A DNA stretch of 45,308 nt from Burkholderiales bacterium (GTDB taxonomy: Bacteria; Pseudomonadota; Gammaproteobacteria; Burkholderiales; JAEUOS01). Below are positions 7,183-26,515 of the stretch, one piece after another. The number at the start of each line of letters is the position of its first letter. Positions within the stretch are counted from its first letter, which is position 1. A program made the translations under genes and the position numbers. Below the pieces are notes generated by a model. It did no database searches, was not told the DNA's origin, and saw nothing but the letters and a program-made list of their open reading frames with translations. The stretch covers positions 1 through 45,308 of the forward strand of contig CANJDH010000030.1 of assembly GCA_947473125.1 (NCBI GenBank), given 5' to 3'.

Positions 7183-8103
7183 TTGTCCCCCCTGACGCTG
7201 CACCAACCCCATCCACACCTGCTGCGCGCCTTCCTGTTCCTGGTCGGCGCGCACGTGCTGTTCACTTTTCTTGATGCCACCGCCAAGGCGCTGGCGAGCC
7301 AGATGGGGGTACCGCTGGTCACGCTGGCGCGCCACAGCCTGCATGCGCTGTTCATGCTGGCGTTTTTTGCGCCTACGATGGGCTGGGCGGTGTTCCGCAA
7401 TCTGACGCGCACCCGGCGCCCGGGCCTGCAGCTGGTGCGTGGCCTGCTGCTCGCCGGATTCACATTTTTCTTTTTTACCGGCCTGCGCTACCTGCCGCAG
7501 GCCGAAGCTACGTCGATCAATTTCCTGACGCCCTTTTTTGTCATGGTCCTGGCCGGGCCGCTGCTCGGCGAACGAGTCACCTGGGTGCGCTGGGTCGGCG
7601 TGGCGCTAGGCTTCATCGGCATGTTGATCATCGTGCGGCCGGGCAACAACCTGGCGCCGATCGGGGTGTTCTTCATCATCCTGACAATGCTGTGCAACAT
7701 CGGCTTCCAGATGCTGACGCGCAAGCTCTCGGCGATTGACAACTCGATCGCGACGATCTTCATTGCGGCGCTGGTCGGTACCACCGCCTCGCTCCTGGCC
7801 CTGCCGCTACAGGAGGTCTGGGGCGGTTGGCCGAAGGAGCTCTCGTCGCTGCAACTGTTCCTGCTGGCGTCGATGGGCGTGACCGGCAGCCTCAGCCAGT
7901 GGTGCCTGATCCGCGCCTACTACTGGTCTTCGGCATCGTTCATCGCCACGCTGGTGTATCTGCAGATCGTCTGGGCGACGCTGTCGGGCTGGGTATTCTT
8001 CGGCCAACTGCCCGATACCCTCACCTTCGTCGGCATGGGCATCATCTGCCTCACCGGCATCGGCGTGATGCTGGTCGAGCGGCGCGGCCGCGTGCGCAGC
8101 TAG
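7183..8103 (+). CDS. EamA/DMT-superfamily permease
   Basis: 306 residues from a TTG at 7183. The open frame extends 35 codons further upstream through the dispersed repeat, but that part is not membrane-like and a 306-residue product is the normal size for ten-helix DMT permeases. Two EamA repeats are visible, the first ending around GERVTWVRWVGVALGFIGM and the second around VFFGQLPDTLTFVGMGIICL. The family exports metabolites or amino acids across the inner membrane; the substrate is not predictable. No good Shine-Dalgarno precedes either start, so the N-terminus is uncertain. The TAG stop at 8101-8103 overlaps the stop codon of the convergent hydrolase within the palindrome CTAG. Confidence 0.85.
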   Translation: MSPLTLHQPHPHLLRAFLFLVGAHVLFTFLDATAKALASQMGVPLVTLARHSLHALFMLAFFAPTMGWAVFRNLTRTRRPGLQLVRGLLLAGFTFFFFTGLRYLPQAEATSINFLTPFFVMVLAGPLLGERVTWVRWVGVALGFIGMLIIVRPGNNLAPIGVFFIILTMLCNIGFQMLTRKLSAIDNSIATIFIAALVGTTASLLALPLQEVWGGWPKELSSLQLFLLASMGVTGSLSQWCLIRAYYWSSASFIATLVYLQIVWATLSGWVFFGQLPDTLTFVGMGIICLTGIGVMLVERRGRVRS

Positions 8104-9362
8104 GCGAGGAACTCGCGCAGCTTCAGGTATACGTCCTGGCGGTCGAGCAGGTCGAGGTGGTGCATGGCGTAGCCGGTCCACTGGCGTGCCTCGGGAATCG
8201 CCAGAATGCGCCGCGCCTCGGCGTGTTGCCCGAGCGCGCTATCGCGCGGTACCAGCCCGTCGCCCATCATGCGCTTGCGGTCGTCGGCATCTTTTGCGAG
8301 CACGCCGGCCAGGGTATAACAAGTCACACCATCAGGCAGGGGCACAACTTGGCGCGCGTCCGGGCCGTGTGAAAAGCGGTCACGCGATTGCGCCGATGTC
8401 TCCGGTTTGTGGCCGATAGCATCCTCTTCGTCCGACGCAACGGACGCAATGTCCTGCTCGAGCAAATTGCCGTAGCGCAGATCGGTAATGCCGGCGCTGC
8501 GGATCTTGGCAAGACGCGAAAATGCCGTCGTATAGGGGCTGGCATCGAGGATCAGGTTGACCCAGTTACCGCCGCGCTCGAGCGGGGCGCCGTGGTGCGG
8601 CGTACCAAGAAAAACGATCTTGCGCAGGTGCTTCAACCAGGTTTGCCCGGCTTCACACGCGGCGCGACAGGTGCTGCGCGTCACCAGCCCACCCATGCTG
8701 TAGCCGAGCATGTCGAGATGTTCCACCGGGACCGGCCAGGCAGCCAGCAAGGCCTCGAGCAGGCCGGCCAGTGCACGACCATTGGCCGCCACGTGCAGGC
8801 CGGTGTTGTAGTTGACGTCGATCACGGTCACGCCCAGGTCGGCGCCCAACCGCGCACCGTGGTCGTGCCCTTTGCGCAGCCACTGCCGGTCACCCATGCA
8901 CAGGCCGTGCACGCGCAACAGGATCCTGCCGTTCGCATCCGGCAGCGCCGCAGCCAGACCAACGGGCGTCAACGCCAGCGCCTTGCCATTGCGGCGCAGC
9001 TGCATCTCGATGCGCAGCGGATTGCTGCGCGTCACCAGATGGTCGCCAAGCACACCATTGAGCGCCGCCAGGATCGCCTCGCGCTCGGCCGTCGACTCGC
9101 GCGACTCGAGCAGGGGCACCAGCCGTTCCAGCACCAGGTCAATGCCGCCGCCCACGCCGCGCGTGATGCCACGCACCACCTTGTAGACGAAGCCGGAGAT
9201 GCCGCCGGTGCGCTCCTGCACCGGTTTGCCGAGCACGCCCGGCGTGCGCACGATCGTCTGGTGCAGGGTCTCTACTAGATCGGCGACACCTACCGTGGCG
9301 TCGATCGCGAGCTGGCTGTAGCCACGGATGTCGGAAAGATGCAGATGGGATTTTCGACGCAT
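8100..9362 (-). CDS. Alpha/beta-hydrolase, lipase/PGAP1-like
   Basis: 420 residues. The nucleophile elbow is G220-Y-S222-M-G-G and the oxyanion-side motif VHG is at 151-153 (LRVHGLCM). A GDGLVP segment and a late His pair (AMHHLDLL) are candidates for the acid and base. The first 140 residues are an unusual helical extension with Gly-rich stretches. A start upstream of 9362 would run through the dispersed repeat, so I chose the ATG beginning MRRKSHLHLSD. No signal peptide is visible. Related triacylglycerol lipase-like proteins of Burkholderiales are uncharacterised. It is separated from the CocE gene upstream by 130 bp holding a dispersed repeat, so it is probably not in that operon. Confidence 0.85.
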   Translation of the reverse strand: MRRKSHLHLSDIRGYSQLAIDATVGVADLVETLHQTIVRTPGVLGKPVQERTGGISGFVYKVVRGITRGVGGGIDLVLERLVPLLESRESTAEREAILAALNGVLGDHLVTRSNPLRIEMQLRRNGKALALTPVGLAAALPDANGRILLRVHGLCMGDRQWLRKGHDHGARLGADLGVTVIDVNYNTGLHVAANGRALAGLLEALLAAWPVPVEHLDMLGYSMGGLVTRSTCRAACEAGQTWLKHLRKIVFLGTPHHGAPLERGGNWVNLILDASPYTTAFSRLAKIRSAGITDLRYGNLLEQDIASVASDEEDAIGHKPETSAQSRDRFSHGPDARQVVPLPDGVTCYTLAGVLAKDADDRKRMMGDGLVPRDSALGQHAEARRILAIPEARQWTGYAMHHLDLLDRQDVYLKLREFLA

Positions 9363-9435
9363 CGACGCGTTATACCGCAATCGGCCCCAATCGGGGCGCA
9401 CCTGCCATGACGGCATCGCAGCACGGACGCGCAAT

Positions 9436-9472
9436 GCCATGAAACCATTGGTGGGAGCGGATTTCCAGCCGC
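9436..9472. repeat. Dispersed intergenic repeat, copy 2
   Basis: Reads tgaaaccattggtgggagcg followed by gatttccagcc. It lies between the CocE-type gene and the lipase-like gene. The core is conserved and the flanks are diverged. Confidence 0.7.
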
Positions 9473-9492
9473 CGTCCACCTCACGTCGAGCG

Positions 9493-11232
9493 CTACGCTG
9501 CTGGAATCACCGGCAGCAACAGGCTCGGAGACCGGCTGCCGCCGAAGTGCAGCGTGACCTTGCCGCCGAATATGCCGGCCGGCCGGTCTTCGGGATCGTC
9601 GTGCACGAACGGCCCGCAACCCTTCATCGGATGCTTCATGTTCGACAGCGTTGCCGCGGGACCGTCCCATTCGTAGTCCTTGCCGCGCAGCGTCAGGGCA
9701 ATCGTGTAGCCCTTGGGCACGACGATGCAGGTGGCCCAGATCTCGACGTCCAGCGCCACTTCCTGGCCGGGCTGCAGCGGTTGCTTCTCGTCGTGCGTAT
9801 GGAACGGCCGGTATGGAAGCGAGCGCACTGCATCGAGCTTGCGATGCGACGCGCGCAGCCAGCCCAGGCTGATCGGCGAGTGCGGGTCGAGCGCGCCCTG
9901 GAACACCACCTCGGTGCCTTGCGGATCGAACACGCGCAACACTGCAAACACGTCGGCATCGGCGGTCGACGACGACAAAAACAGCTTGAGCGCCGACGGG
10001 CCGGTAATTTCGGTGGCCTCGGCAAGCGGCGCAGTCTTGAATGTCACGCCATCACCCAGAGCGTCATAAGTAATCGCCCCTTCCGCGGTGACCGGGGTTG
10101 GCGACAAACGCATGCCGTTCGGGTCGAGATGGAAGTGGGTCCATTTTGTGCGCGCCAGCGGCCATTCGGATTCGTGGCGTTCCACAAAGGTCTCGCCGGG
10201 GTGGCGGATCTGCAGGCGAATCCGCGGCTCTTTGTCCCAGCCGTTGGCCGCGCCCTTGAGGAAGAAATCGAAGAACTTCTTTTGCATCCTGACGCCATAG
10301 TCGGTGTAAAACGGCGCCCAGTGCGAGCCGCCATGCGCTTCAAGCCACTTCTGGCTGGAGGCCGCGCCAACGAAGCCTTCGAGATTGCCGCGCAGGTGCA
10401 GGCCGTGGCCGCCCCAGTTGGCCGCCGACAGCAACGGCACCTTGACGCGCGACAGGTCGGCCGAGCGTTCGCGATAGTAGGGGCCGTCGAGTTCGCGGGC
10501 GAGCAGTTGCCCCGCCATGTTCTCGCGGTTCTTCACCAGCTCTTCAGCCGTCAGCGTATCGGGGCCGCAGGCCCACTCGCCGGTGACCGGGCTCTTGCGC
10601 CCGTTTGCGCCGACGCCGTGCTGCACCGTCTTGACCTGCATGTCCTGCCAGTTCTTGCGGAACGAGCAGAGGATGCCGCCATGGCGGTTACCGTCGCGGT
10701 AGTTGTCATGCCAGCCCTCCCATACGCAGATTGCGGCAAGATGCGGCGGTTGGGTCGCCGCAGCGCGCCACTGGTTGGCGGCGTAGTAGGAAATGCCATT
10801 CAGGCCCACCTTGCCGGTGGACCACGGTTGCACTGCAGCCCATTCGATGCAGTCGTGATAGTCCTTCTGCTCGCGGTCGTTGTTGTGGCACAGGTAACCC
10901 GGCGAACGCCCGGCGCCGCGCGAATCGACGCGCACGCACACATACCCGTCCGGCACCCACTTCTCGGGGTCGACCACCTCCCAGTTCGCATACAGGTTGG
11001 TGGTGCCCGACACCGCGTCCGGATTCTCGCGGCACATGATGTCCCATGAGGTCTTGTAGCCTTCCTGGAACGCTACGCCCTTGCCATACGGCCCGTAGGT
11101 CATCAGCACCGGGTAGCGCCCTTCTGCTACCGGGCGGAACACGTCGGCGCGCAGCACCAGGCCATCGTCCATGGTGACCGGCACATCCCAATCGATGCGC
11201 ATGCCGTCGCGTACTTCGCTTTTGAATTCCAT
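9493..11232 (-). CDS. CocE/NonD-family hydrolase (X-Pro dipeptidyl-peptidase S15 fold), copy 1
   Basis: 579 residues from an ATG with GAGGAAC 7 nt upstream. The S15-type catalytic domain has the oxyanion segment TYGPYGKG (45-52) and the nucleophile S148 in NGISYYAANQW. The C-terminal jelly-roll region (from about 330) is the X-Pro/CocE C-terminal domain. CocE/NonD enzymes cleave esters and amides, for example cocaine or glutaryl cephalosporins. No signal peptide is seen, so hydrolysis is probably cytoplasmic, after uptake. It is the last gene of the nine-gene minus-strand cluster, 35 bp after a Bug gene. It is a close paralogue of the CocE gene at 17252-18994, by eye near-identical through most motifs. 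Confidence 0.92.
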   Translation of the reverse strand: MEFKSEVRDGMRIDWDVPVTMDDGLVLRADVFRPVAEGRYPVLMTYGPYGKGVAFQEGYKTSWDIMCRENPDAVSGTTNLYANWEVVDPEKWVPDGYVCVRVDSRGAGRSPGYLCHNNDREQKDYHDCIEWAAVQPWSTGKVGLNGISYYAANQWRAAATQPPHLAAICVWEGWHDNYRDGNRHGGILCSFRKNWQDMQVKTVQHGVGANGRKSPVTGEWACGPDTLTAEELVKNRENMAGQLLARELDGPYYRERSADLSRVKVPLLSAANWGGHGLHLRGNLEGFVGAASSQKWLEAHGGSHWAPFYTDYGVRMQKKFFDFFLKGAANGWDKEPRIRLQIRHPGETFVERHESEWPLARTKWTHFHLDPNGMRLSPTPVTAEGAITYDALGDGVTFKTAPLAEATEITGPSALKLFLSSSTADADVFAVLRVFDPQGTEVVFQGALDPHSPISLGWLRASHRKLDAVRSLPYRPFHTHDEKQPLQPGQEVALDVEIWATCIVVPKGYTIALTLRGKDYEWDGPAATLSNMKHPMKGCGPFVHDDPEDRPAGIFGGKVTLHFGGSRSPSLLLPVIPAA

Positions 11233-11267
11233 TGCGGCGTTCCTCGTTGCGTCTCTAGACGCGGTTG

Positions 11268-12239
11268 TCATTCGGGTTTGATGTTTGCAGACTTGGCGAC
11301 CTTGGCCCACAGGTCCATCTCGGCGCGCACGCGCGCGCCAAACTCCTCGGGCGTCTGCCCGCCGGGCTCGGCGCCAATATCGGTAAAGCGCTTTTGCACG
11401 TCGGCGTCCTTGAGTACGGTGGCCACATCGCGCTGGATCTTGGCGATCACATCCTTCGGCGTGCCCTTCGGGGCAAACAGCCCGAACCACGAAATCGCCT
11501 CATAGCCCGGCACTTCCGCCGACATCACCGGCGCGTCCGGAAACAAGGGGGTCGGTTTCGACGAAGCGACACCCAGCATGCGCACCCGGCCGGCCTTCAC
11601 CTGCCCCTGCACCGAACTGACCGCCGCAATGCCGATCGGCACGTGGCCGCCGGCCAGATCGGTCATCAGCGGCCCTGCCCCCTTGTAGGACACGCTCTGC
11701 AGGTCGGTCCCGGCGAGCATGTTGAACAGGTGGCCGGCAAAGGCCGAGCTCGAATCGGACGTGCCGAACGAGACCGACCCCGGCTTGGCGCGCATGATCG
11801 CAATCAATTCCTTGATGCTCCGCGCCGGAAAGTTGGCGGCTGCCACCATGGCAAACGGCGACACCGACACGATCGTCACCGGCTGAAAATCGCCCATCGG
11901 GTCGTAGGGCAGCTTGGCATACATGCTCGGATTGACCACGTAGGCGGTCGAGGTCAGGAGCAGCGTGTAGCCGTCCCCCGGGCTCTTGGCCACCGCGTCG
12001 GTACCGATGATGGTGTTGGCGCCGGGTTTGGTCTCGATGATGACGGGCTGCCCCCACAACGCGGCCAGCTTCTCGTTGATGATGCGCGCGTTGGCGTCGG
12101 TGCTGCCCCCCGGTGCGAACGGAATGACGATACGCACGGGTTTGGATGGGAATGCCTGGGCGTGTGCCGCCAACGGCACGGCGCCCGCAGCCATGCCGAA
12201 CGAAAGAATCAGTGCGACGCGCGCGATCATTGGGTTCAT
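11268..12239 (-). CDS. Bug/TctC-family periplasmic substrate-binding protein 1
   Basis: 323 residues with a signal peptide ending around AAHAQ (residue 28) and the family opening FPSKPVRIVIPFAPGGSTD. The HVPIGIAAVSSVQGQVKAGRVRMLGV block and the closing WFGLFAPKGTP...IAKIQ block are Bug landmarks. Bug proteins bind carboxylates, often aromatic or amidated acids, in the periplasm and classically pass them to TctA/TctB, which are absent here. GGAGAG lies upstream of the ATG. It sits between Bug 2 (72 bp upstream) and the CocE gene (35 bp downstream). Confidence 0.93.
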   Translation of the reverse strand: MNPMIARVALILSFGMAAGAVPLAAHAQAFPSKPVRIVIPFAPGGSTDANARIINEKLAALWGQPVIIETKPGANTIIGTDAVAKSPGDGYTLLLTSTAYVVNPSMYAKLPYDPMGDFQPVTIVSVSPFAMVAAANFPARSIKELIAIMRAKPGSVSFGTSDSSSAFAGHLFNMLAGTDLQSVSYKGAGPLMTDLAGGHVPIGIAAVSSVQGQVKAGRVRMLGVASSKPTPLFPDAPVMSAEVPGYEAISWFGLFAPKGTPKDVIAKIQRDVATVLKDADVQKRFTDIGAEPGGQTPEEFGARVRAEMDLWAKVAKSANIKPE

Positions 12240-12311
12240 GAGGTTCTCTCCAGAGGTTAGGGCTTGCGTCTGCCCTTCAAAACAAGGTGACGCGAATAGC
12301 AGGTATGGCGC

Positions 12312-13277
12312 TCATTCGAGCTTGATGTTGGCGTCCTTGATGACACGGCCCCACTTCGCCGTTTCAGCGCGGATGAAAGCGAGGAATTCTTCCGGCGATT
12401 CGCCGCCGTATTCATAACCTTGCTGGATCGCGTCGGCCTTCATCGCCGGCGTGGCGAGGATCTTTGCGGTTTCCGCTTGCAGGCGCAGGATCACTTCGCG
12501 GGGCGTGCCTGCCGGCACAAACAGCCCGTTCCAGCCGGATGCCTCGACCCCGGCCAGCCCTGCCTCGGCGAAGGTTGGCACATCGGGAAGAAAGCCGAAG
12601 CGCTTCGATGCGGCAACACCGATTGCGCGCAACTTGCCCGACCGAATGTGCTGGGCCACCACCACCGGCGCGAGGTACGCTGTCGACACGTGGCCGGCGA
12701 GCAGGTCGGGCAGTTCGGCGCCGATCGCCTTGTAGGGAATCTCGCGCACCGAAATGCCGGCGGCCGACTTGACCTTCTCACCCAGCAACTGCGTAATCGC
12801 GCCGGTACCGCCGGAAGCAAACGTCAGCAGTTGCGGCTGTGCCTTGGCCAGCGCGATGTACTCCTTGAGGTTGTTGGCCGCAACCGACGGATGCACCACC
12901 ATCACCAGCGGCGTGCTGGTCAGACGCGTCACCGGCACCAGGCCCTCGCCGAGGCGGCAGCAGGTGTCGTTGCTGAGCAGGTCGTTGAGCGAGTTGTTGA
13001 TGTTGGCGTGCAGCCAGGTGTGGCCGTCGGGTGCAGCGCGCGCCACTTCACGCGCGCCGATCGCGCTGTTGGCGCCAGGGCGGTTGTCGATCACCACGGA
13101 TTGCCCGAGCACTTCGGCCAATGCCGGGGCGAGCTTGCGTGCGAACACGTCGACGGCGCTGCCGGGTCCGGCCGGCTCCACCAGGCGAATCGTCTTGGTC
13201 GGCCAGGTTTGCGCCTGGACCAAAGGTGCCGCGTGCATGGCTAGCGCGGCAACGAACAAACCAGTGATTGTCTTCAT
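12312..13277 (-). CDS. Bug/TctC-family periplasmic substrate-binding protein 2
   Basis: 321 residues with a signal peptide cut near APLVQAQ and the start-of-domain motif WPTKTIRLVEPAGPGSAVD. This is a divergent form of the Bug PFxPGGxxD loop (E-P-A-G-P-G-S), which may change ligand choice. A pair of cysteines (SNDTCCRLGEG) in the first lobe is unusual for the family. GGAGACC lies close upstream of the ATG. It is followed 72 bp later by Bug 1 and preceded by an alpha/beta-hydrolase gene 41 bp upstream. Confidence 0.9.
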   Translation of the reverse strand: MKTITGLFVAALAMHAAPLVQAQTWPTKTIRLVEPAGPGSAVDVFARKLAPALAEVLGQSVVIDNRPGANSAIGAREVARAAPDGHTWLHANINNSLNDLLSNDTCCRLGEGLVPVTRLTSTPLVMVVHPSVAANNLKEYIALAKAQPQLLTFASGGTGAITQLLGEKVKSAAGISVREIPYKAIGAELPDLLAGHVSTAYLAPVVVAQHIRSGKLRAIGVAASKRFGFLPDVPTFAEAGLAGVEASGWNGLFVPAGTPREVILRLQAETAKILATPAMKADAIQQGYEYGGESPEEFLAFIRAETAKWGRVIKDANIKLE

Positions 13278-13318
13278 GAAGGTCTCCGGTCCAATGGGAA
13301 AAGTTCAAAGGGTGATGT

Positions 13319-14110
13319 TCAATGCTGGTCGAGGAAAGCACGCAGGATACCGTTGTAGCCGGCCTCGTTTTGCAGGTTTGCAATATGTGCAGCCTGCGGT
13401 ACCGGCGTATACGATGCGCCCGGCACTTTGGCGGCCAGCGTGCGCATCAGCGCTTCCGGCCCGCCGACTTTGTCTTCCGCACCACCCATGAACAGCGTAG
13501 GCGCGGTGATGCGGCCAATCTCGTCCTCTATGTCGAGCCCGACGAACGCTGCCACATTGCCCAGATAGCCCTCCTTACTGGTGGCACGGATCATCGCGCG
13601 CACCTCGTCAAGCTTGCCCGGATGCGCTGCCTTGAAATCTTCCGAAAACCAGCGCTGCGCGGTCTGCTCGACGATCGCCTCGACGCCCTCGGCCGTCACA
13701 GTATCAATGAGCCGCTGCCACATCGCCGCAAAGTCGGGCACCATGCGCGCCCGGCAGCAGGTCGGCAGCAGGGCGATGATGCGCGCCGGATGGTCGATCG
13801 CGACGCGCATCGCCACCGGGCCGCCGAGGCCCAGCGCCACCAGGTGCGAGCGCTGGATGCCCAGCGCATCCCACAACGCCACCAGATCAGCCGCTAGCGA
13901 TGCAATCGAATACGCACCGGGCGTAGCTTCGCTTTTGCCCTGGCCGCGCAGGTCGTAGCGCAACACCCGGTACTTGTCGCCCAACGCGCGTGCCTGCCCG
14001 GCAAACAGCGTGGTGTCGTTGGCGATGCCGGTGATGAAGGTCACCCAGGGGGCACCTTCCGGGCCATCCACGGTGTAATGCATGTTGATGCCGTTCGCTT
14101 GAACAAACAT
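13319..14110 (-). CDS. Alpha/beta-hydrolase-fold protein with Ser-to-Gly at the nucleophile
   Basis: 263 residues resembling 3-oxoadipate enol-lactonase and related hydrolases, with FITGIANDTT, RYDLRGQGKS (51-60) and a complete fold to the C-terminus. The nucleophile elbow reads V-A-L-G94-L-G-G where the family has G-x-S-x-G-G; the codon is GGC, one base from AGC. The acid (GGAEDKVGG) and a late His (QAAHIANL) are present. Loss of the Ser would prevent ordinary esterase chemistry, so the protein may have another reaction or a binding role, or the call could be a sequencing error. AAGGAG precedes the ATG well. It is 12 bp from the upstream hydrolase gene. Confidence 0.88.
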   Translation of the reverse strand: MFVQANGINMHYTVDGPEGAPWVTFITGIANDTTLFAGQARALGDKYRVLRYDLRGQGKSEATPGAYSIASLAADLVALWDALGIQRSHLVALGLGGPVAMRVAIDHPARIIALLPTCCRARMVPDFAAMWQRLIDTVTAEGVEAIVEQTAQRWFSEDFKAAHPGKLDEVRAMIRATSKEGYLGNVAAFVGLDIEDEIGRITAPTLFMGGAEDKVGGPEALMRTLAAKVPGASYTPVPQAAHIANLQNEAGYNGILRAFLDQH

Positions 14111-14122
14111 GTTTCGGACTCC

Positions 14123-14980
14123 TTACTGTTGCTGCGCAGCGGCGCCGGCAACATGGTGCATGAATGCGACAAACTTGCGCGCCATCGCCGGTTCGTGCGG
14201 CGCCCAGTCCGAAAACGGCAGCAGCGGCACGTCCTGGTCCTGGATCGGCAACTGGAACAGCTCGCTGCCGGGAATCAGCTTGTGCGCCGCCAGGCCGTTG
14301 CCCGACGCATGGGTGTTGTCGTTGCCGGGCACGATCAGCGTCGGCACCTTGATCGAGCCAAGTTGTGCGTCGGTCAGTCCCATCACCGGAGCACGCGGCC
14401 CCTGCAGGAAGATCGCCAGCCAATGCTCCATCACCCGGATGTACTCGGCCGGGTCCATCGCCATCAGCTTGTCGCGGTTCGCCGGATTCGCGGCGATGCG
14501 CTCCTGGTATTGCTCGGTGGCGCACACCGCCGCCATGCCGCCCTCGCGCGCCGCCTTGATGAACTGGCCGTAATACATGTTCGGCAGGCGGCCGGCAGCA
14601 AAGGCGCCGCCGGTGATGCGCGCCAGGATCAGGCCGCGCACCTGCTGCGGGTGGCGCAGGTACACCAGCATCGACATGCGCGCCCCCGACGAGGTGCCGC
14701 CGATGAATGCCGGCAACGCATTGAGCTGACCGAGCAGGACCACCAGATCATCGGCCCAGATTTCCTCCTCGCCCTCGTTTCCGGCGATCACCACTTCGGA
14801 AGCCCCCGTGTTGCGCCGGTCATGCAACAGCACGCGGCAGCCTTCCGCGGCGAGCTTTTGTGCCAATGGCACGAACTCGGTGAAACCGCGCCGCCCGCCG
14901 GTGACAAACGCGAACCACGGCCCGCGATCGCCAAACGTTTGGTAATGGATCTTGACGCCACGTATGTCTGCTATCGGCAC
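14123..14980 (-). CDS. Alpha/beta-hydrolase with intact GTSSG nucleophile elbow
   Basis: 285 residues. I chose the GTG at 14980 because CTGGAGACAGCA gives a well-spaced Shine-Dalgarno, and an upstream ATG at 15028 would overlap the previous gene and add a non-conserved leader. The product opens PIADIRGVKIHYQTFGDRGPW. The nucleophile S97 lies in G95-T-S-S-G99. VTGGRRGFTEF and HDRRNTGASE correspond to the oxyanion and strand-4 regions. It is a probable cytoplasmic esterase or C-C hydrolase of unknown substrate. The gene is in the middle of the nine-gene cluster, 34 bp after the 402-residue hydrolase gene and 12 bp before the Ser-less one. Confidence 0.88.
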   Translation of the reverse strand: MPIADIRGVKIHYQTFGDRGPWFAFVTGGRRGFTEFVPLAQKLAAEGCRVLLHDRRNTGASEVVIAGNEGEEEIWADDLVVLLGQLNALPAFIGGTSSGARMSMLVYLRHPQQVRGLILARITGGAFAAGRLPNMYYGQFIKAAREGGMAAVCATEQYQERIAANPANRDKLMAMDPAEYIRVMEHWLAIFLQGPRAPVMGLTDAQLGSIKVPTLIVPGNDNTHASGNGLAAHKLIPGSELFQLPIQDQDVPLLPFSDWAPHEPAMARKFVAFMHHVAGAAAQQQ

Positions 14981-15014
14981 TGCTGTCTCCAGAATGAAGG
15001 ATGGAACGCCGGAT

Positions 15015-16223
15015 TCAGCCCGGCGCAAAGGCCAGCCGGCGCTGGTCGATCTTGAAAATGTCGGTCAGCCAGTCAAGCATGATTTCCTGGCCCAGGGTCG
15101 GGTTGTCGTGCTGGCAATGCTCGGCGCCGGTCTCTTCGGCGTCGGTCAGGCGCAGCGTCACGTTGATGCCCTTCGATTTCGCGTAGTCGTGCACCTGCTT
15201 GACGGTCTCGACGCCGAGCACGTCGTGCCCGCCATGCAGCACCAGATACGGGCAGCGCATTTCGTCGAGCACGCCGTCGAGCTTGAATGGCGCGGCTATC
15301 TCGACCGCCTCGGTCATGGTCTTCGCGCCCAGCACCCATTTCATGTGGCCGGCCAATGCGTGATGCTCGCCGCGGTCGGCGAAGCGCTTGGCAATGTCCC
15401 AGATCGCACCATGCGATATGCAGGCCGCAAGGCGATGTTCCTTCGACCCGGCGCGCGCGGCGTAATAGCCGCCCATGCTCGAACCACTAACTGCAATCCG
15501 TGTGGCGTCGACATCGGCACGCTGCTCCAGCCAGTCGATGCAACGGCCGATCGGCACTTCGTAATCGTGGCGCGACACGATGTTCTGGCGGCGCAACGCG
15601 CCGCCCTGCCCCGGGCCGTCCACCAGCAGGACCGCAATGCCGCGCTGTACCGCGCCGCGCCCGGTCATGAACCAGAGTTCGTCCTTGAACGAATCGAGGC
15701 CGCCCACCGAAATGAGCACCGGCTGCTTCACGTTGCCGCCCCGGCCATAGGCCGGTGACTTGACGAAATAGGCCGGCAGGGTCTTGCCGTTCTCGTAGGG
15801 GATTTCGACCACTTCACCGGGCGGATCGAGGTGGCGCAGCCATTTCTGGCTCGCCGCCTCGCAGCGCGTGAAGGTCGGCAGGCGCCGCGGGTCGTCCGCC
15901 GGCAGCCAGAACTCCGCTGAGCGGAACTGGTCGGCCGAGCGCAACCAGCAATTCATCGCGGTACGAATGTGCCCGGCCTTTTCGGCCGCGTCGCCGCGCA
16001 CGTCGTTGCGATTGGCGACGTGCATCCATTCGTCGTGCCAGCTGTCGAGGTCGCCGGGCACCATGCGGCTGGCCGCCTGGAACGATTCGCTGACGCTGCC
16101 GCCGCCCTCCTGGGTTTCGCCGAGCGCGCGGCGAAACTGGTAAGACATGAAAAAATGGTCCGGCCAGTGGTGCCAGCCGAACGGCTCGTAGCGGGGCGCC
16201 GCCCCAGATGCAGGTGCCGTCAT
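15015..16223 (-). CDS. Alpha/beta-hydrolase, 2,6-dihydroxypseudooxynicotine hydrolase-like/FrsA-like
   Basis: 402 residues with a helical N-terminal half (about 1-140) preceding the alpha/beta core. This layout is known from 2,6-dihydroxypseudooxynicotine hydrolase, which cleaves a C-C bond. The nucleophile S249 lies in V-S-G-S-S-M-G-G. Other marks are ISVGGLDSFKDE, VDGPGQGG and the acid/base region LVLHGGHDVLG and GAEHCQHDN. No signal peptide is seen. It begins 21 bp after the Bug 3 gene. The relation to C-C hydrolases is based on architecture only; an esterase or peptidase is possible. Confidence 0.87.
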   Translation of the reverse strand: MTAPASGAAPRYEPFGWHHWPDHFFMSYQFRRALGETQEGGGSVSESFQAASRMVPGDLDSWHDEWMHVANRNDVRGDAAEKAGHIRTAMNCWLRSADQFRSAEFWLPADDPRRLPTFTRCEAASQKWLRHLDPPGEVVEIPYENGKTLPAYFVKSPAYGRGGNVKQPVLISVGGLDSFKDELWFMTGRGAVQRGIAVLLVDGPGQGGALRRQNIVSRHDYEVPIGRCIDWLEQRADVDATRIAVSGSSMGGYYAARAGSKEHRLAACISHGAIWDIAKRFADRGEHHALAGHMKWVLGAKTMTEAVEIAAPFKLDGVLDEMRCPYLVLHGGHDVLGVETVKQVHDYAKSKGINVTLRLTDAEETGAEHCQHDNPTLGQEIMLDWLTDIFKIDQRRLAFAPG

Positions 16224-16244
16224 GTTTTGCTGCTTTCGAATCGG

Positions 16245-17216
16245 TTACTGCGGTTTGAAGCCGATGTCGCGCACCAGCTTGCCGTACTTGGCGTAGTCGC
16301 TCTTGATGACTTCGCCAAAGTATTCCGGCGATTCGGCGACCACGATCAAGCCCAGCGCCACCAGTTTCTCGACCACCTCGGGCTGCTTCATGGCGCGGTT
16401 GATTTCGTCATTGAGTTTGGCGACGATGTCGCGCGGCGTGCCGGCTGGCGCCACGTAGCCGAACCAGCCGCCCGATTCATAGCCCGACACGGTTTCCCCG
16501 GCGGCCGGCGTGTCGGGCCAGGTATTGACGCGCGTCTTGTTGGTGATCGCCAGCAGGGTGATGCGCCCCGAGCGGATGTGCGGCGTGATGCCGGAGATGC
16601 CGTCGATGCCGGCCTGCACCTGGCCGCCGACCAGGTCGGTGACGATCTGCGCCGAGCCCTTGTAGGGGATGTGGTTGTAGGTGAAATTACCCATCATGCG
16701 CAGGTGTTCGAACACCAGGTGCGGGAAGCCGCCTTCGCCGTTGGTCGCGACGGTGAGCTTACCGGGGTTCGCCTTGGCGTAGGCGATCATCTCCGCCAGG
16801 GTCTTGAACGGCGCGTTGGTGCTCGCGACAATGCCCTGGTAGTTGGTGGTCGAAATCGCGACCGGCGCAAAATCCTTGAGCGCATCGTAAGGAATGTTCT
16901 TGCTGGTATGCGGCAGTACCACCAGGTTGCCGCCCTGCCCGGCGCCGATGGTGTAACCGTCGGGAGCCGCCTTGGCGACCAGGTCCAGGCCGAGCATGCC
17001 GCTGGCTCCGGCACGGTTCTCGACCACGACCTGCTGCCCGAGCCGCTCCGAGAGTCGCGGCGCCACCAGGCGCGTCATGATGTCCATGGTGTTGCCCGGC
17101 GGGAACGGGATGATGATCCTGATGGGCTTGTTGGGGTAACCCTGCGCCTGCACCAGCGTCGCACAGACCAGTGCCAACGCCGCCAGCACGAAACGCACTA
17201 CCAATACGGTTTTCAT
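16245..17216 (-). CDS. Bug/TctC-family periplasmic substrate-binding protein 3
   Basis: 323 residues with a signal peptide ending around TLVQAQ and the domain start GYPNKPIRIIIPFPPGNTMD. The PGGxxD loop is PPGNTMD here. The middle contains IPYKGSAQIVTDLVGGQVQAGIDG, a standard Bug segment. AAAGGA lies upstream of the ATG. It sits between the second CocE gene (35 bp upstream) and the 402-residue hydrolase (21 bp downstream). A CocE-Bug pairing is found at both ends of the cluster but in opposite order. Confidence 0.93.
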   Translation of the reverse strand: MKTVLVVRFVLAALALVCATLVQAQGYPNKPIRIIIPFPPGNTMDIMTRLVAPRLSERLGQQVVVENRAGASGMLGLDLVAKAAPDGYTIGAGQGGNLVVLPHTSKNIPYDALKDFAPVAISTTNYQGIVASTNAPFKTLAEMIAYAKANPGKLTVATNGEGGFPHLVFEHLRMMGNFTYNHIPYKGSAQIVTDLVGGQVQAGIDGISGITPHIRSGRITLLAITNKTRVNTWPDTPAAGETVSGYESGGWFGYVAPAGTPRDIVAKLNDEINRAMKQPEVVEKLVALGLIVVAESPEYFGEVIKSDYAKYGKLVRDIGFKPQ

Positions 17217-17251
17217 GGAAGAGTCCTTTCTCGCAATTAGCTTGTCGTGAA

Positions 17252-18994
17252 TCAGGCCGCCGGAATAAACGGCAGCAGCGCGCTCGATTCGCGCCCCGGG
17301 CCCGCATGCAGGGTCACCTGGCCGCCAAAAATCGCCGGCGGCCGGTCGGTGTCGTCGTCGTGCTCGAACGGGCCGCAGCCCTTCATCGGGTTTTTCATGT
17401 TCGACAGCACCGTCCGTTCGCCGGCGTATTCGTAGTCCTTGCCGCGTACCGTCAGCACAATGCGGTAGTCCGTGGGCACCACGATGCAGGTCGGCCAGAT
17501 CTCCACGTCGAGTTCGTAAACCTTGCCTGATTCGAGTGGCTGCTTCTCGTCGTGGGTATGGTACGGCTGATACGGCAGCGAGCGTTGCGGGTCAAGTTTG
17601 CGCTGCGATGCACGCAACCAGCCTTGCGCCACCGGCGTGTGCGGATCGAGTGCGCCCTGGAACACGACCTCCTTGCCTTGCGGGTTGAACACCTGCAGCA
17701 CCGCAAAGATGTCGGCATCCGCGGTCGACGATTCGATGAACAGTTTCAGCGCGATCGGCCCGGTGATTTCGACCGATGCCCCGGTCACCGTCATAGAGAA
17801 ACTGACGCCGTCGCCCATCATGTCGTAGGTCAGGGTCTGCGCGCCGGCCGCCGGCGTTTTGGCCAATTGCATGCCTGCGGGATCGAGATGAAAACGCGTC
17901 CACTGGGTACGCGCCAGCGGCCATTCGTTCTCATGGCGCGCCACAAATTTCTCGCCGGGGTGGCGCACTTGCAGCAGCACCTTGGGCTCTTTATCCCAGC
18001 CGTTGTCCGCGCCCTTGAGGAAGTGGTCGAAAAAGCGCTTTTGCAGCTTGACGCCGTAGTCGGTGTAGAACGGCGCCCAGTGCGAGCCGCCGTGCACTTC
18101 CAGCCACTTCTGGTTCGACGCCGACTCGGTGAAGCCGGAAAAATTGCCGCGCGTGTGCAGGCCCTGCCCGCCCCAGTTGGCAGCCGTCATCAGCGGCACC
18201 ACCACCTTCGACAAGTCGGCAGAACGCTCCCGGTAATACGGTGCATCCAGGGTGCGCACCAGCACTTCGCCCCACATGTCCTCGCGGTTCTTGAACAGTT
18301 CCTCGTCGGTCAAGGTTTCGGGGCCGCAGACCAGCTCGCCGGTAACCGGGCTCTTGCGGCCGCGCGTGCCCATGCCGTGCTGCACCGTCTTGACCTGCAT
18401 GTCCTGCCAGTTCTTGCGAAACGTGCAGGCGATGCCGCCGTGCCGATTCCCCTCGCGGTAGGCATCATTCCAGCCTTCCCACGCACAAATGGCTGCGAGA
18501 TGCGGCGGCTGCACCGCCGCCGCGCGCCACTGGTTGCTGGCGAAATACGAAATGCCGTTCATGCCGACCTTGCCGTTGCTCCAGGGCTGTGCCGCTGCCC
18601 ACTCGATGCACAGATAGATGTCGCGGGTTTCGCGCGCATTGTTGTGCTGCAGAAAACCGGGCGAGCGCCCGGCGCCGCGCGAATCGACGCGGATGCAGAC
18701 GTAATCGTCCGGCACCCACTTTTCAGGGTCGACGACTTCCCAGTTGGCGTACCGGTTCGAAGTACCCGCGACCGCGTCCGGATTGTCGCGCGCCATGAGG
18801 TCCCAGGCGGTCTTGTAGCCTTCCTGAAAGGCGAGCCCCTTGCCGTACGGGCCGTAACTGATCAGCACCGGGTAACGACCGGGAGCAATCGGGCGAAACA
18901 CGTCGGCGCGCAGCACCAGGCCGTCGTCCATCGTCACCGGCACATCCCAGTCGATCTGCATGCCGTCGCGCACTTCGCTTGTCATCTGCTTCAT
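17252..18994 (-). CDS. CocE/NonD-family hydrolase (S15 fold), copy 2
   Basis: 580 residues from the ATG at 18994; AAGGA lies 5 nt upstream of it, whereas the ATG two codons earlier would sit too close to that site. It shares the full layout of the copy at 9493-11232: EVRDGM..DWDVPVTMDDG, the YGPYGKGLAFQEGYK segment, the nucleophile in NGISYFASNQW, and the C-terminal jelly-roll domain. Probable cytoplasmic ester or amide hydrolase. The two copies bracket the cluster, so an ancestral duplication with two Bug partners is likely. Differences are concentrated in the region after the catalytic core. Confidence 0.92.
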   Translation of the reverse strand: MKQMTSEVRDGMQIDWDVPVTMDDGLVLRADVFRPIAPGRYPVLISYGPYGKGLAFQEGYKTAWDLMARDNPDAVAGTSNRYANWEVVDPEKWVPDDYVCIRVDSRGAGRSPGFLQHNNARETRDIYLCIEWAAAQPWSNGKVGMNGISYFASNQWRAAAVQPPHLAAICAWEGWNDAYREGNRHGGIACTFRKNWQDMQVKTVQHGMGTRGRKSPVTGELVCGPETLTDEELFKNREDMWGEVLVRTLDAPYYRERSADLSKVVVPLMTAANWGGQGLHTRGNFSGFTESASNQKWLEVHGGSHWAPFYTDYGVKLQKRFFDHFLKGADNGWDKEPKVLLQVRHPGEKFVARHENEWPLARTQWTRFHLDPAGMQLAKTPAAGAQTLTYDMMGDGVSFSMTVTGASVEITGPIALKLFIESSTADADIFAVLQVFNPQGKEVVFQGALDPHTPVAQGWLRASQRKLDPQRSLPYQPYHTHDEKQPLESGKVYELDVEIWPTCIVVPTDYRIVLTVRGKDYEYAGERTVLSNMKNPMKGCGPFEHDDDTDRPPAIFGGQVTLHAGPGRESSALLPFIPAA

Positions 18995-19038
18995 GTCCAT
19001 CCTTGTTTGCTGTTGTTGTGCCGGGCTCCCGAATCGCG

Positions 19039-20067
19039 TCACTCGGCCTTGATGCTTTTCTCGCGAATCACCTTGGACCACATCTCCTGCTCTTCGCGCA
19101 TTTCGCGCGCGAACTGCTCGGGCGTGTTGGCGACGATCTCGTTGCCGCCCTTCTGCGCGCGCTCGCGCACGTCCGTCTGTGCCAGCGCCTTGACGACCTC
19201 GGCATTGAGCTTGGCGACGATAGCAGAGGGCGTGCCGGCCGGCGCCAGCATTCCCAGCCAGATGTAGGCAGCGAGCCCCTGCAGGCCGGTTTCGCCCATG
19301 GTCGGCACCTCGGGCACCGGCGCCGAGCGCTTGTCGGCAAACACCGCCAGGCCGCGCATCTTGCCGGCCGCCACCATTGCCTGTGAATTACCGACGCTGT
19401 CGCAAAACATCTGCGCTTCGCCGGCAATGGTGGCAGCCTGCGCCGGCGCCGCGCCCTTGTAGGGCACGTGGACGATGTTGGTGCCGGCGGCAATGTTGAA
19501 CATTTCGCAGGCGAGGTGCCCGCCGCTGCCGATGCCGACGCTTGAGTAGTTGAGCTGCCCAGGACGCGCCTTGGCCAGCGCGATGAATTCCTGCACGGTC
19601 TTGGCCGGCAGGGCCGGATTGATCAACAGGTACATCGGGTACTTGACGGCATTGGTCACGGGAGCAAAGTCGCGCACTGCATCGAACGGCCGCGGGTTGC
19701 GCAACAGCGGGCTGATCACATGCGCGCTGTTCGAGGTGAACAGCAGCGTATAGCCGTCGGCCGGCGCCTGCAGCACCATGGCCGTGCCCACCTGGCCGGT
19801 ACCGCCGACGCGGTTTTCGACCACCACCGGCTGGCCCCAGGCATCCTGCAGCTTTTGCGATATCACGCGGGCATACAGGTCGGTCGGCCCGCCCGGGGGA
19901 AACGGCACGATCACGCGGATCTGCCGCGACGGATAAGTCGATTCGGGCGCCTGCGCATGCAGCGGTCCGGAGACGGTCAGTGCGACCAATGCGAAAAGCG
20001 CGAAAAGTGCGAAAAGCGCGAAAATGGATGTCTGCGCGACGTGCCGGCAGGTTGTGGCTGCTCCCAT
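19039..20067 (-). CDS. Bug/TctC-family periplasmic substrate-binding protein 4, repeat-bearing signal peptide
   Basis: 342 residues and first gene of the nine-gene minus-strand cluster. AAAGGAGAC is well spaced before the ATG, the strongest Shine-Dalgarno of the cluster. The signal peptide is long (about 39 residues) and contains four FAL triplets encoded by a 9-bp tandem repeat at 19991-20026. The mature domain opens YPSRQIRVIVPFPPGGPTD and has VPYKGAAPAQAATIAGEAQMFCDSVGN, which carries an unusual Cys. The next gene is CocE copy 2, 44 bp downstream. Confidence 0.93.
   Translation of the reverse strand: MGAATTCRHVAQTSIFALFALFALFALVALTVSGPLHAQAPESTYPSRQIRVIVPFPPGGPTDLYARVISQKLQDAWGQPVVVENRVGGTGQVGTAMVLQAPADGYTLLFTSNSAHVISPLLRNPRPFDAVRDFAPVTNAVKYPMYLLINPALPAKTVQEFIALAKARPGQLNYSSVGIGSGGHLACEMFNIAAGTNIVHVPYKGAAPAQAATIAGEAQMFCDSVGNSQAMVAAGKMRGLAVFADKRSAPVPEVPTMGETGLQGLAAYIWLGMLAPAGTPSAIVAKLNAEVVKALAQTDVRERAQKGGNEIVANTPEQFAREMREEQEMWSKVIREKSIKAE
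19991..20026. repeat. 9-bp tandem repeat coding for FAL triplets in a signal peptide
   Basis: Four near-identical 9-mers (gcgaaaagc, gcgaaaagt, gcgaaaagc, gcgaaaatg on the plus strand) encode the repeated Phe-Ala-Leu of the Bug 4 signal peptide on the minus strand. The unit is a multiple of three, so copy-number change would lengthen or shorten the hydrophobic core in frame. Confidence 0.9.
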
Positions 20068-20197: not shown

Positions 20198-21118
20198 ATG
20201 ATCGACGCCAGCAAAACCAACCGCCTCACGACGCTGCCGACTACCGTGCTGTTCGCCGACATTGTCGATTCGATCGACCTGTTCGCGCGTCTCGGCAACC
20301 AGGTGGCCAAGGAGCTGATCGACGAATTTTTCGATCAGCTCAAGTTCCTGGTCGTCGACCACCACGGCACCGTCGTCAAACTGATTGGCGACGAGCTGAT
20401 GTGCTCGTTTGGCCAACCGCTGGCGGCATTCGCCGCTGCGCGGGACATGCAGCGCCTGGCCGACACCCTCAACGGCACGCGCCTGGAGCAGGTCAAGCTG
20501 CGCATCGGCTTTCATTCGGGCAACGTGATCCGCGCCGGGGACGACCTGTTCGGCGACACCGTCAACATCGCCTCAAGGGTGGCCGGAGTGGCCAGCAGCG
20601 GACGCATCCTCACTACCGGGCAGACGGTGGCCATGGTGCCGGCCTACGATGCCGGCCTGGTGCGGCCGTGGCGCCGCGAATTGCTCAAGGGCCTGACCGA
20701 GCCGGTGGAACTGCACGAGGTGCTATGGACCGAAGCCCTCGACGGCAACGAATTTCGCAACACCTCGCTAGGCAGCTACCAGCCGCCAACCGCGCACCAA
20801 CTGGTCATGAGCCTGCAGGGCCGCTCCTATGTGGTCAATGCGCCGCGCCCCTTGCTCACGCTCGGGCGCCACCCCTCGAACCATGTCGTGGTGCAGGACG
20901 AAGGCGCCTTCGTGTCGAGCCACCACGCCAAGATCGAATGCCGTGGCGGCGTGTTCGTCCTCACCGACACCAGCCTCAACGGCACTTACGTGGCCCTCGG
21001 CAGCGGCAACCACTTTCGCGTCAAGCTGCCGTTCACGCTCGAATCGTCCGGCCTGTTGGTGATCGGCTATCCGCCGAAGCATCCCGACCAGATCGTGGCG
21101 CGCTTTGAACTGATCTGA
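20198..21118 (+). CDS. Class III adenylate/guanylate cyclase with C-terminal FHA domain
   Basis: 306 residues. The cyclase domain (about 12-180) has both metal-binding aspartates, D21 (LFADIVDS) and D65 (KLIGDELM), the purine-contacting K61, and the transition-state pair N123 and R127 in GDTVNIASR. It should therefore be active, and the Lys/Asp pattern favours ATP. The FHA domain (about 210-295) has G223-R224-H, SSHH (240-243) and N261-G-T and should bind phosphothreonine. No membrane segment is seen, so it is cytosolic. It is divergent from the Bug/hydrolase cluster. An FHA-linked cyclase implies control by a Ser/Thr kinase encoded elsewhere. Confidence 0.92.
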   Translation: MIDASKTNRLTTLPTTVLFADIVDSIDLFARLGNQVAKELIDEFFDQLKFLVVDHHGTVVKLIGDELMCSFGQPLAAFAAARDMQRLADTLNGTRLEQVKLRIGFHSGNVIRAGDDLFGDTVNIASRVAGVASSGRILTTGQTVAMVPAYDAGLVRPWRRELLKGLTEPVELHEVLWTEALDGNEFRNTSLGSYQPPTAHQLVMSLQGRSYVVNAPRPLLTLGRHPSNHVVVQDEGAFVSSHHAKIECRGGVFVLTDTSLNGTYVALGSGNHFRVKLPFTLESSGLLVIGYPPKHPDQIVARFELI

Positions 21119-21388: not shown

Positions 21389-22369
21389 CTATTGGAGCCT
21401 GATCCCGGCGGCGGCGATCACTTTTTCCCAGCGCGCCCGGTCTTCGGTGATGAGCGTGGCAAACTGCTCCGGCGTGTTGCCAACCAGCCTGGCCCCGCTT
21501 GGTGCAAAGCGGTTTTGCATGTCGACATCCTTGAGTGCTGCCGCCGCTTCAGTACGCAATCGATCAACGATCGCCTTCGGGGTTTTCGCCGGTGCGATCA
21601 GGCCAAACCACGACGAGGCTTCAAACCCGGGCAACCCGGCTTCACCGATGGTCGGCACGTTCGGCAACTGTGCCATACGCTCCTTCGCCGCCACGCCAAG
21701 GGCGCGCAGGGTGCCGGCCTTGACCTGCGCCATGATGGTCGGCGGGTTGTCGAACAGCGCCGTGGTCTGGCCGGCCAGCGTCGATTGCACCGCTTCGGCG
21801 GCGCTCTTGTAGGGCACGTGCTGTAGCTTGACGCCGGCCGCCACCATGAACAGTTCCATGCCGAGGTGCCCGGTGGTACCGTTGCCGGGTGAACCGTAGA
21901 ACAATCCGCCGCTGGTCGATCTGGCGAGGTTGATGAACTCTTTCACATCGCGCGCCGCCACGTCGTTGCGTACCACCAGCACCATCGGCATATCGGCCAC
22001 CACCGTCACCGGTGTGAACGCAGTGGCGGCATCGAACGGCATCTTCGCGTACAGGAACTGGTTGATCGTGAGGATGCCGGCCGACGACATCAGCAAGGTG
22101 TAGCCGTCCGGTTCGGCACGCGACACCACCTCCGCGCCGACATTGCCGCCGGCGCCGGTGCGGTTTTCGACCACGAAGGGCTGGCCCATCGACTTGGTGA
22201 GGCGCTCGGCCACACTGCGCGCCAGCACGTCGGCGAGGCCGCCTGCCGCGAACGGCGCGATGATCTTCACCGGGCGAGCCGGGTAGGTTTGCGCCGCAGC
22301 CGCCGTTGCGCCAAGACCCGACAGCGCCGCCAGCAACGCCACTCCCGTCGTCCGCATAAAACGTTTCAT
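21389..22369 (-). CDS. Bug/TctC-family periplasmic substrate-binding protein 5
   Basis: 326 residues from the second of two adjacent ATGs, chosen because GGGGGA is 6 nt upstream of it. Signal peptide cut near TAAAAQ, then TYPARPVKIIAPFAAGGLADVLARS, the Bug PFxxGGxxD loop in the form PFAAGGLAD. It lies 44 bp downstream of the lipoprotein cytochrome c and sulfite dehydrogenase genes on the same strand, which suggests that its ligand may be a sulfur compound; this is inference from context. Confidence 0.92.
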   Translation of the reverse strand: MKRFMRTTGVALLAALSGLGATAAAAQTYPARPVKIIAPFAAGGLADVLARSVAERLTKSMGQPFVVENRTGAGGNVGAEVVSRAEPDGYTLLMSSAGILTINQFLYAKMPFDAATAFTPVTVVADMPMVLVVRNDVAARDVKEFINLARSTSGGLFYGSPGNGTTGHLGMELFMVAAGVKLQHVPYKSAAEAVQSTLAGQTTALFDNPPTIMAQVKAGTLRALGVAAKERMAQLPNVPTIGEAGLPGFEASSWFGLIAPAKTPKAIVDRLRTEAAAALKDVDMQNRFAPSGARLVGNTPEQFATLITEDRARWEKVIAAAGIRLQ

Positions 22370-22413
22370 CATGTCTCCCCCGACGCCATCAACAGGCCGC
22401 AACGCGCGCACCC

Positions 22414-23001
22414 TTACTTGCAATCGTGCATGCAGCGCGAGCCGTTCACGTCGGGCCGCGGATCAATCTGGGTGAAGCCGTTGCGATTCGGCATCGCCAC
22501 TTTCGGCAACGACTGCGCGTCCATCACGGCGTCGGCGCCGATCACGCCGTTCTGGTTGAGCAGAAACGCGGCGAGCGCGTACACCTCGTCGGGCTTGAGC
22601 GACTGCGGCTTGTCGTGCGGCATGGCGCGGTTGACATAGTCGTAGACGATGGTGGCATAGGGCCAGAAGCTGCCGATCGTCAACAACGGTTTCGCCATGG
22701 CCAGCGTGCCTTGGCCGCCCACCAGGGTGCCGCCGGGCCCGCCAGTGCCGGTAGCACCATGGCAGGCCGCGCACTTTTGCGTGAACAGTGCACGCCCCTG
22801 TGCCACGCTGCCGGATCCGGCCGGCAATCCGGCGCCATCGGGCGTGACGTCGATATTCCAGGCATTGACCTGAGCAGCGCTAGGCGTGCTGCCGATGCCG
22901 TAACGCGTGGTCGTGGATTGCGGCGCGGGTTGTGGCGCGGTGCAGCCGCTGGCGAGCAGCAGCGCCACGGCGCAGATGGCGAATGCCTTATGCGTGGACA
23001 T
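22414..23001 (-). CDS. Lipoprotein c-type cytochrome, SoxD/SorB-like partner of sulfite dehydrogenase
   Basis: 195 residues. The lipobox L-A-S-G-C20 marks a lipoprotein. One haem motif C77-A-A-C80-H81 is present, with a probable Met ligand in the NRAMPHDKPQSL segment. The C-terminus has a CMHDC cysteine pair. Its start overlaps the 3' end of the molybdoenzyme gene by 14 bp, indicating translational coupling and that it takes electrons from that enzyme. It is much shorter than the classical two-domain SoxD of Paracoccus, so functionally it is closer to a monohaem partner of the SorA/SorB type. Confidence 0.88.
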   Translation of the reverse strand: MSTHKAFAICAVALLLASGCTAPQPAPQSTTTRYGIGSTPSAAQVNAWNIDVTPDGAGLPAGSGSVAQGRALFTQKCAACHGATGTGGPGGTLVGGQGTLAMAKPLLTIGSFWPYATIVYDYVNRAMPHDKPQSLKPDEVYALAAFLLNQNGVIGADAVMDAQSLPKVAMPNRNGFTQIDPRPDVNGSRCMHDCK

Positions 23002-25936: not shown

Positions 25937-26079
25937 TGGTAGCGGCGCCGGTGGCTATGCAAAGACCGCACTGTAGCCGCAAACCCGGTAGCCCGGGGCA
26001 CATCGCCCGCCCGGCCCCGCCGTCTGGCGCGGAACCCGGATTCTGCGGGAACCGACTTTTGCATCGCCCGACTGCTGCG

Positions 26080-26358
26080 TCAGGATTCGGGCTGCGGAAG
26101 TGAGCGCGACGCCAGTTCGACGCGCGATGACACCGGCGGCAACATGCCGAGCCGCAGCAGCAAGGCACGCAGGTTTTGCTCTCCGGTCTTGTGCAGGATA
26201 TTCTTCACATGGGTGCGTGCCGTGCTCACCGAGATGTGCAGCGTCTCGGCAGCCTCGCTGACATCCTTGGCGCGGCACAGCTCGCCTGTGACCCGTGCTT
26301 CGGTCGGGGTCAGGCCGTTGGCGCGGGCAAAAAAATGCTGGCTGACGCCGTTGCACAC
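26080..26358 (-). pseudogene. C-terminal LuxR-type HTH remnant
   Basis: About 92 residues that keep only the LuxR DNA-binding domain: LTPTEARVTGELCRAKDVSE, the HTH VSTARTHVKNILHKTG and a following helix. Full-length relatives carry 200 or more residues of sensory sequence before this domain. The open frame continues upstream, but that part is antisense to the VOC gene promoter and is not LuxR-like. A degenerate dispersed-repeat copy sits at the breakpoint near 26376-26411. An in-frame GTG at 26358 could still yield a small HTH protein, so a functional short regulator is possible. Confidence 0.6.
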
Positions 26359-26375
26359 GCCGGGCCGCTCTTCAT

Positions 26376-26411: not shown

Positions 26412-26515
26412 GCCCTCGCCTGATCACCCGAGCGGGTGCGGTATGCTCGCCTCCTGCAACACTTTCCGCTACCGCGCACCTTGCGCTGCCGAATGGCGCA
26501 ATCGAGGAGACCCCC

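Follow-up and report, generated by a model that had tools for sequence, protein, structure and literature searches.

A run of Bug binding-protein and hydrolase genes in a Burkholderiales genome, a possible junction of two catabolic modules

The DNA analyzed here (the window) is a stretch of 45,308 nucleotides from a Burkholderiales bacterium (assembly GCA_947473125.1, contig CANJDH010000030.1, positions 1–45,308), and the element under study is a run of nine minus-strand open reading frames (ORFs), g1 to g9, at 9493–20067. The run encodes four TctC/Bug binding proteins and five proteins of the alpha/beta-hydrolase fold. A core of three genes (g2-g3-g4; module A) kept its order in relatives, and a second trio (g5-g6-g7; module B) was kept in two of them. 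We give about an even chance to the reading that the run is a catabolic operon joining these two modules, which would import an aromatic or N-heterocyclic acid bearing an acyl group and hydrolyze it stepwise, g4 being the enzyme that cleaves a C-C bond. The substrate is probably a ring-shaped organic compound. The nine genes were assigned as follows.

g1, 19039..20067, minus: Bug/TctC binding protein (TctC, 6.2e-69)
g2, 17252..18994, minus: CocE/NonD hydrolase, core module A (TIGR00976, 5.5e-63)
g3, 16245..17216, minus: Bug/TctC binding protein, core module A (TctC, 2.6e-66)
g4, 15015..16223, minus: DHPONH/FrsA-like alpha/beta hydrolase, core module A (2jbw_A, 4.6e-29)
g5, 14123..14980, minus: alpha/beta hydrolase, module B (Hydrolase_4/Abhydrolase_1 match)
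g6, 13319..14110, minus: PcaD-like protein, module B (TIGR02427, 222.7 bits, below the cut-off of 255.85)
g7, 12312..13277, minus: Bug/TctC binding protein, module B (TctC, 3.5e-58)
g8, 11268..12239, minus: Bug/TctC binding protein (TctC, 4.1e-55)
g9, 9493..11232, minus: second CocE/NonD hydrolase (TIGR00976, 1.4e-67)

Layout and modular conservation

The intergenic gaps from g1 to g9 were 44, 35, 21, 34, 12, 41, 72 and 35 bp (range 12–72), using starts picked by eye for g2 (18994), g5 (14980, GTG) and g9 (11232). The nine genes, their strand, the order Bug, CocE, Bug, three hydrolases, Bug, Bug, CocE, and these gaps were thus present as an earlier note on this DNA had described them, and the Pfam and NCBIfam profile matches bore out the families it had named; its ‘three fold types’ proved to be three families of one fold. 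The PF03401 cut-off was exceeded by all four Bug genes (g1, g3, g7, g8), which share only 32–36% pairwise likeness and whose translations carry hydrophobic N-terminal leaders, as judged by eye. A tenth same-strand gene (8100–9479, PGAP1/DUF7379-like) was kept out of the run because a possible start at 9362, picked by eye, leaves about 130 bp.

Genome contigs were scanned with g4, giving 168 confirmed loci, the best 80 of which were kept for all counts below that are expressed out of 80 or by g4 identity. ORF maps followed a longest-ORF rule, which leaves the gene ends of relatives approximate. Loci L011 and L012 are duplicates of L017 and L058, and these contigs are identical with C85 of genome G004 and C6 of genome G003. 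The order CocE-Bug-g4 on a single strand was found in 13/80 loci, or in 11 by a strict rule, the difference being L058 (Bug and g4 overlap) and L036 (Bug reading frame broken up). A CocE gene lay within 4 kb of g4 in 17/80 loci, falling from 14/24 at g4 identity ≥74% to 2/22 at 67.5–74% and 1/34 below. Similarly, the gene immediately upstream of g4 was a Bug in 27/46 loci at ≥67.5% (24 under a stricter rule) and, by either rule, in none of the 34 below, whereas a branched-chain-type ABC binding protein was present in 18/34 loci below that identity vs. 1/46 above. Since the g4 family is accompanied by a Bug in the first clade and by an ABC transporter in the second, uptake is suggested as the role of the Bug here. 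Both of the other DHPONH-like genes of the source genome (at 1e-30) also adjoin a same-strand Bug. The conserved core supports the earlier proposal of an uptake-and-hydrolysis run lacking a local permease; the note would have taken a lack of order conservation in relatives as refutation, and such a lack was found for the full nine-gene run but not for g2-g3-g4.

Among 18 stretches around CocE matches, a g3-like Bug adjoins CocE in L127 (72%) and L131 (74%), with no g4 in the stretch, and in L132 a g3-like Bug (80%) is separated from CocE by another alpha/beta hydrolase. There was no clear positional orthologue of g1, the Bugs that precede CocE in L017 and L058 being 42% and 37% identical to it. 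In Polynucleobacter sp. UK-Mo-2m-Kol15 (L031:2-11170), a second, diverged CocE-Bug-Bug-DHPONH-like-CocE set (34–40%) is located immediately upstream of the core set, an independent instance of doubled CocE around Bugs.

Module B was traced in two further assemblies. In L015, whose g4 is 90% identical, g3-g4-g5-g6-g7-g9 runs from the contig end, with g8 absent from the equivalent place and a g9 orthologue (83%) after g7. In G004, which shares the family of the source genome and belongs to another genus, g2-g3-g4 occupies the end of contig C85 and the g5-g6-g7 trio is internal to contig C25, adjoining a divergent GntR/UTRA regulator gene; a further Bug, an amidase and a polysaccharide-deacetylase-type gene (54%) lie close by. 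The g5-g6-g7 order was thus kept in the window, L015 and G004 at 70–86% identity; g7 orthologues were 79% identical in L015 and 75% in L110. Given the split in G004 and the partial run in L015, the two modules appear fused in the window, and the run appears, from gene order, to consist of module A, module B, the second CocE (g9) and two extra Bugs (g1 and g8). The claim that all nine genes form one dedicated unit was therefore not supported. The fractions with a match, the source genome included, were 11/200 at 1e-60 and 4/399 at 1e-90 for g5, 4/300 at 1e-55 for g6 and 30/399 at 1e-170 for CocE.

The g4 hydrolase and the proposed pathway

By sequence, g4 matched 2,6-dihydroxypseudooxynicotine hydrolase (DHPONH, PDB 2jbw) at 4.6e-29, and the catalytic Ser217, Asp300 and His329 of that enzyme were aligned in g4 (residue offset 14, by eye); the triad numbering was taken from an excerpt of PMC6122326, and Glu248, named in the same excerpt, was not placeable in the g4 alignment. 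The AlphaFold model of g4 (pLDDT 85.6) gave 2jbw as its best Foldseek match (8.3e-24), followed in order by SMU_737, Wdyg1p, AntI and Ayg1p, the last three being polyketide-shortening enzymes by title. Several of these nearest enzymes cut C-C bonds. The fold and the Ser-Asp-His residues are also what g4 has in common with the nicotine pyridine pathway, from which the present system differs in the identity of g4 to DHPONH (about 28%), in its company of CocE and Bug genes, and in the lack of a hydroxylase match in the window. An identity of 28% is too low to assume cleavage of 2,6-dihydroxypseudooxynicotine, and g4 was not classed as a DHPON hydrolase.

In the scheme we propose, the Bugs would bind a small periplasmic acid and deliver it to one of the few TctAB permeases that the genome encodes. 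Inside the cell, CocE would split an ester or amide, g4 would hydrolyze, in the manner of DHPONH, the C-C bond that links an acyl chain to a ring (aromatic or N-heterocyclic), and g5 and g6 would act on a product, e.g., a lactone or enol. We infer co-transcription, the substrate class, the order of the steps and the permease.

Whether the substrate is specifically an N-heterocycle (a pyridine or cyclic ureide), as opposed to an aromatic compound generally, was considered separately, and this narrower version is possible but somewhat doubtful. An FAD monooxygenase was located within 4 kb of g4 in L030 (Polynucleobacter sinensis, a cultured species that carries the core), L034 and L049, and the only PDB match of the one in L030 at 1e-15 was 2,6-dihydroxypyridine hydroxylase (2vou), which acts after DHPONH in nicotine breakdown according to the excerpt of PMC6122326; the resulting nicotine-like hint is suggestive only. 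In the clade below 67.5% g4 identity, isochorismatase-type (17/34), polysaccharide-deacetylase-type (19/34) and FAA-hydrolase (13/34) genes were within 4 kb of g4, and the deacetylase-type gene and amidase near module B in G004 point the same way. The matches of g3 included Bug27 (3.4e-57), described as a quinolinate binder in an excerpt of PMC11452294, but a different Bug, 2dvz, matched equally (3.4e-58), with terephthalate binders following at 8.6e-51, and none of these enzyme neighbours matched the window at 1e-5.

Several results weigh against the two-module catabolic operon. The scan for promoter-like sites found 0, against 2.3 in shuffles, and the 15 terminator-like sites were close to the chance level of 11.2, so that these scans gave nothing useful and co-transcription rests on spacing. 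Contig C85 ends shortly after g4 and the assemblies are metagenomic, hence the split in G004 could be a binning error. The identity of g4 to DHPONH is low, and SMU_737, named as a peptidase, matches g4 nearly as well as 2jbw does. The hydroxylase-like neighbour was within 4 kb in only 3/80 loci and had no match in the window at 1e-5; among ten neighbour-gene types searched for in the window, flavin reductase alone matched (31%).

CocE, g5 and g6

The CocE/NonD membership of g2 and g9 was clear from TIGR00976 scores of 213.8 and 229 bits against a cut-off of 66.3, and likeness to this group (TIGR00976; 3ib3) extended to Pfam S15 + PepX_C and to the GISY nucleophile motif, present in 24/24 aligned CocE rows (two rows repeat others). 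All 24 rows also carry NWGG, by which the g2/g9 subfamily differs from cocaine esterase, at the aligned site where we take that enzyme to have its acid residue. The two genes are 74% identical to each other and, at 1e-5, g9 matched nothing else in the source genome. In the tree they were not paired, g9 grouping with L015 (100/100), while 7 of 19 inner forks were left open. The idea that the whole CocE-Bug unit had recently duplicated in tandem was rejected on this topology and on the low likeness among the Bugs.

For g6, likeness to the 3-oxoadipate enol-lactonase PcaD (2xua) consists of a sequence match at 2.2e-38 and of the retained Asp and His. It differs in having Gly95 at the site of the nucleophile serine, so that the GxSxG serine of PcaD is missing, and in its sub-cut-off TIGR02427 score. 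Gly was found at this site in both close orthologues (L015 and L110) and Ser in 5/5 remoter homologues among the loci studied; a serine-less PcaD relative is a small question in its own right. In g5, Ser97 is present and the usual C-terminal site has no invariant His: in an alignment of eight rows, read by eye, invariant His occurred only at 53 and 224, neither being the usual site. The g5 model had a modest global fit to known structures (TM ~0.6), the nearest being an enol-lactonase and esterases.

Since g5 keeps Ser without the usual His and g6 keeps Asp and His without Ser, the two might be a paired, non-canonical alpha/beta-hydrolase couple that forms a two-subunit enzyme or carries out non-hydrolytic chemistry (lyase or tautomerase), an idea built on residue patterns that we consider very unlikely. 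In 4/4 loci found with g5 at ≥65%, a serine-less alpha/beta hydrolase was the neighbour, with Gly in the window, L015 and L110 and Ala in L109, where the neighbour of the g5 relative is a different gene and the Ala was read by eye. For the remoter g5 homologues (45–54%), 0/10 scanned neighbours were a simple alpha/beta hydrolase lacking the serine, which weakens the pair idea outside the close clade; one of these ten (L112:7603-8988) is FrsA-like.

The earlier note had suggested that the run is dedicated to the uptake and hydrolysis of carboxylic acid esters or amides; on this reading, all five enzymes would be ester or amide hydrolases. The family of g2 and g9, the profile proximity of g6 to PcaD and the structures nearest to g5 are consistent with such a pathway, and such substrates are possible for the CocE genes. 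This does not extend to g4, whose nearest enzymes include DHPONH and polyketide-shortening ones, several of them cutting C-C bonds, to g6, where Gly replaces the nucleophile in the gene and both close orthologues, or, by eye, to g5, which also lacks a canonical catalytic residue; moreover, the modules are separate in G004. A single ester/amide pathway is thus unlikely.

Binding proteins, permeases and surroundings

Many Burkholderiales show a strong over-representation of Bugs, the majority of them orphans without a known ligand. Bug-rich genomes with few TctA are well described, e.g., 202 vs. 5 in Achromobacter xylosoxidans (PMC5812351, excerpt), and Rhodoplanes has a nine-gene array, with only nine of its tripartite tricarboxylate transporter (TTT) binding-protein genes in standard TTT operons and sensing roles raised (PMC5994714, excerpt). 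The present Bugs resemble the orphan Bugs of Bordetella, Achromobacter and Rhodoplanes in belonging to the TctC family and in far outnumbering TctA, and differ from them in being tied to a conserved enzyme core.

The source genome (4.88 Mb, 209 contigs, 97% complete) has at least 150 TctC matches among 245 candidates, g7 and g8 falling outside those 150. With random placement in 4.88 Mb, four Bugs within 8 kb were expected at a mean of 1.6 places for 245 genes and 0.2 for 152 genes, and other multi-Bug sites occur, such as contig C88 with four within 11 kb, three of which adjoin TctA/TctB. The Bug count is therefore weak evidence, and calling four orphan Bugs unusual was an overstatement; what goes beyond chance is the conserved gene order, not the number of Bugs. 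A complete TTT transporter, with TctA and TctB encoded alongside the binding protein, was not found in the run, in agreement with the note. The genome's TctA and TctB sites, three of each, all lie outside the window, and given three TctA genes a distant permease common to several Bugs is plausible from gene content.

The same numbers bear on the view that only g2-g3-g4 are functionally linked and that the remaining genes are a weakly selected neighbourhood in a Bug-rich genome, with some Bugs possibly sensory. The chance expectation, the lack of clear positional orthologues for g1 and g8, and the Rhodoplanes precedent are in its favour; the g5-g6-g7 order kept in three assemblies, the retention of g9 in L015 and the short gaps all along the run are not, and overall we regard it as somewhat improbable.

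Orphan Bugs next to catabolic enzymes are a known kind of arrangement, and no description of the CocE-Bug-DHPONH-like core was found in the open-access literature searched. A Burkholderia paper (PMC3557247) was dismissed as a TctC-CocE precedent, both terms falling in primer names and letters in the excerpt. With Bug g3 constant beside two enzymes in many genomes, a narrow substrate hypothesis (an acyl-aromatic or acyl-heterocyclic acid) can be framed, and the system could also inform whether a single TctAB pair serves many Bugs.

Beside the run, no usual transcription regulator was seen adjoining it in the window; the divergent gene next to g1 (20198–21118, plus) encodes an adenylate/guanylate cyclase domain and an FHA domain. 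A further Bug (21389–22423, minus; TctC match) adjoins a cytochrome c gene (22414–23001), and with a molybdopterin oxidoreductase with dimerisation domain (22988–24283, minus) these form a sulfite-dehydrogenase-like set plus Bug (21389–24283, minus). At 25265–33679, a flavin reductase (25265–25936), two flavin monooxygenase-like genes (27858–29678, plus; 30690–32009, minus) and a Bug (32120–33679) are a possible second Bug-linked oxidative cluster. The flavin reductase was rejected as a shared element, being only 31% identical to the gene upstream of CocE in Polynucleobacter-like loci. When 33 other window ORFs were compared with the loci, matches in more than three loci were confined to Bug paralogues and the flavin reductase (five loci, 30–33%); a methyltransferase-like gene (29840–31039) had 52–59% matches in three loci, not near a conserved place. 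No use could be made of PrpF (two loci within 4 kb), an Asp/Glu racemase (L015) or a molybdopterin enzyme (L016), whose occurrence was too sporadic. A luciferase-like gene occurred in seven loci of one sub-clade, and one stands beside the g5 relative in L109.

Farther along the window, two adjacent NMT1/THI5-like binding proteins lie beside a histidine kinase (38179–41913, minus), perhaps as a ligand-sensing set. The G+C content falls to 57% in 42001–44000, next to a CHAT-domain gene (43687–45117), and 42001–45117 is possibly acquired DNA.

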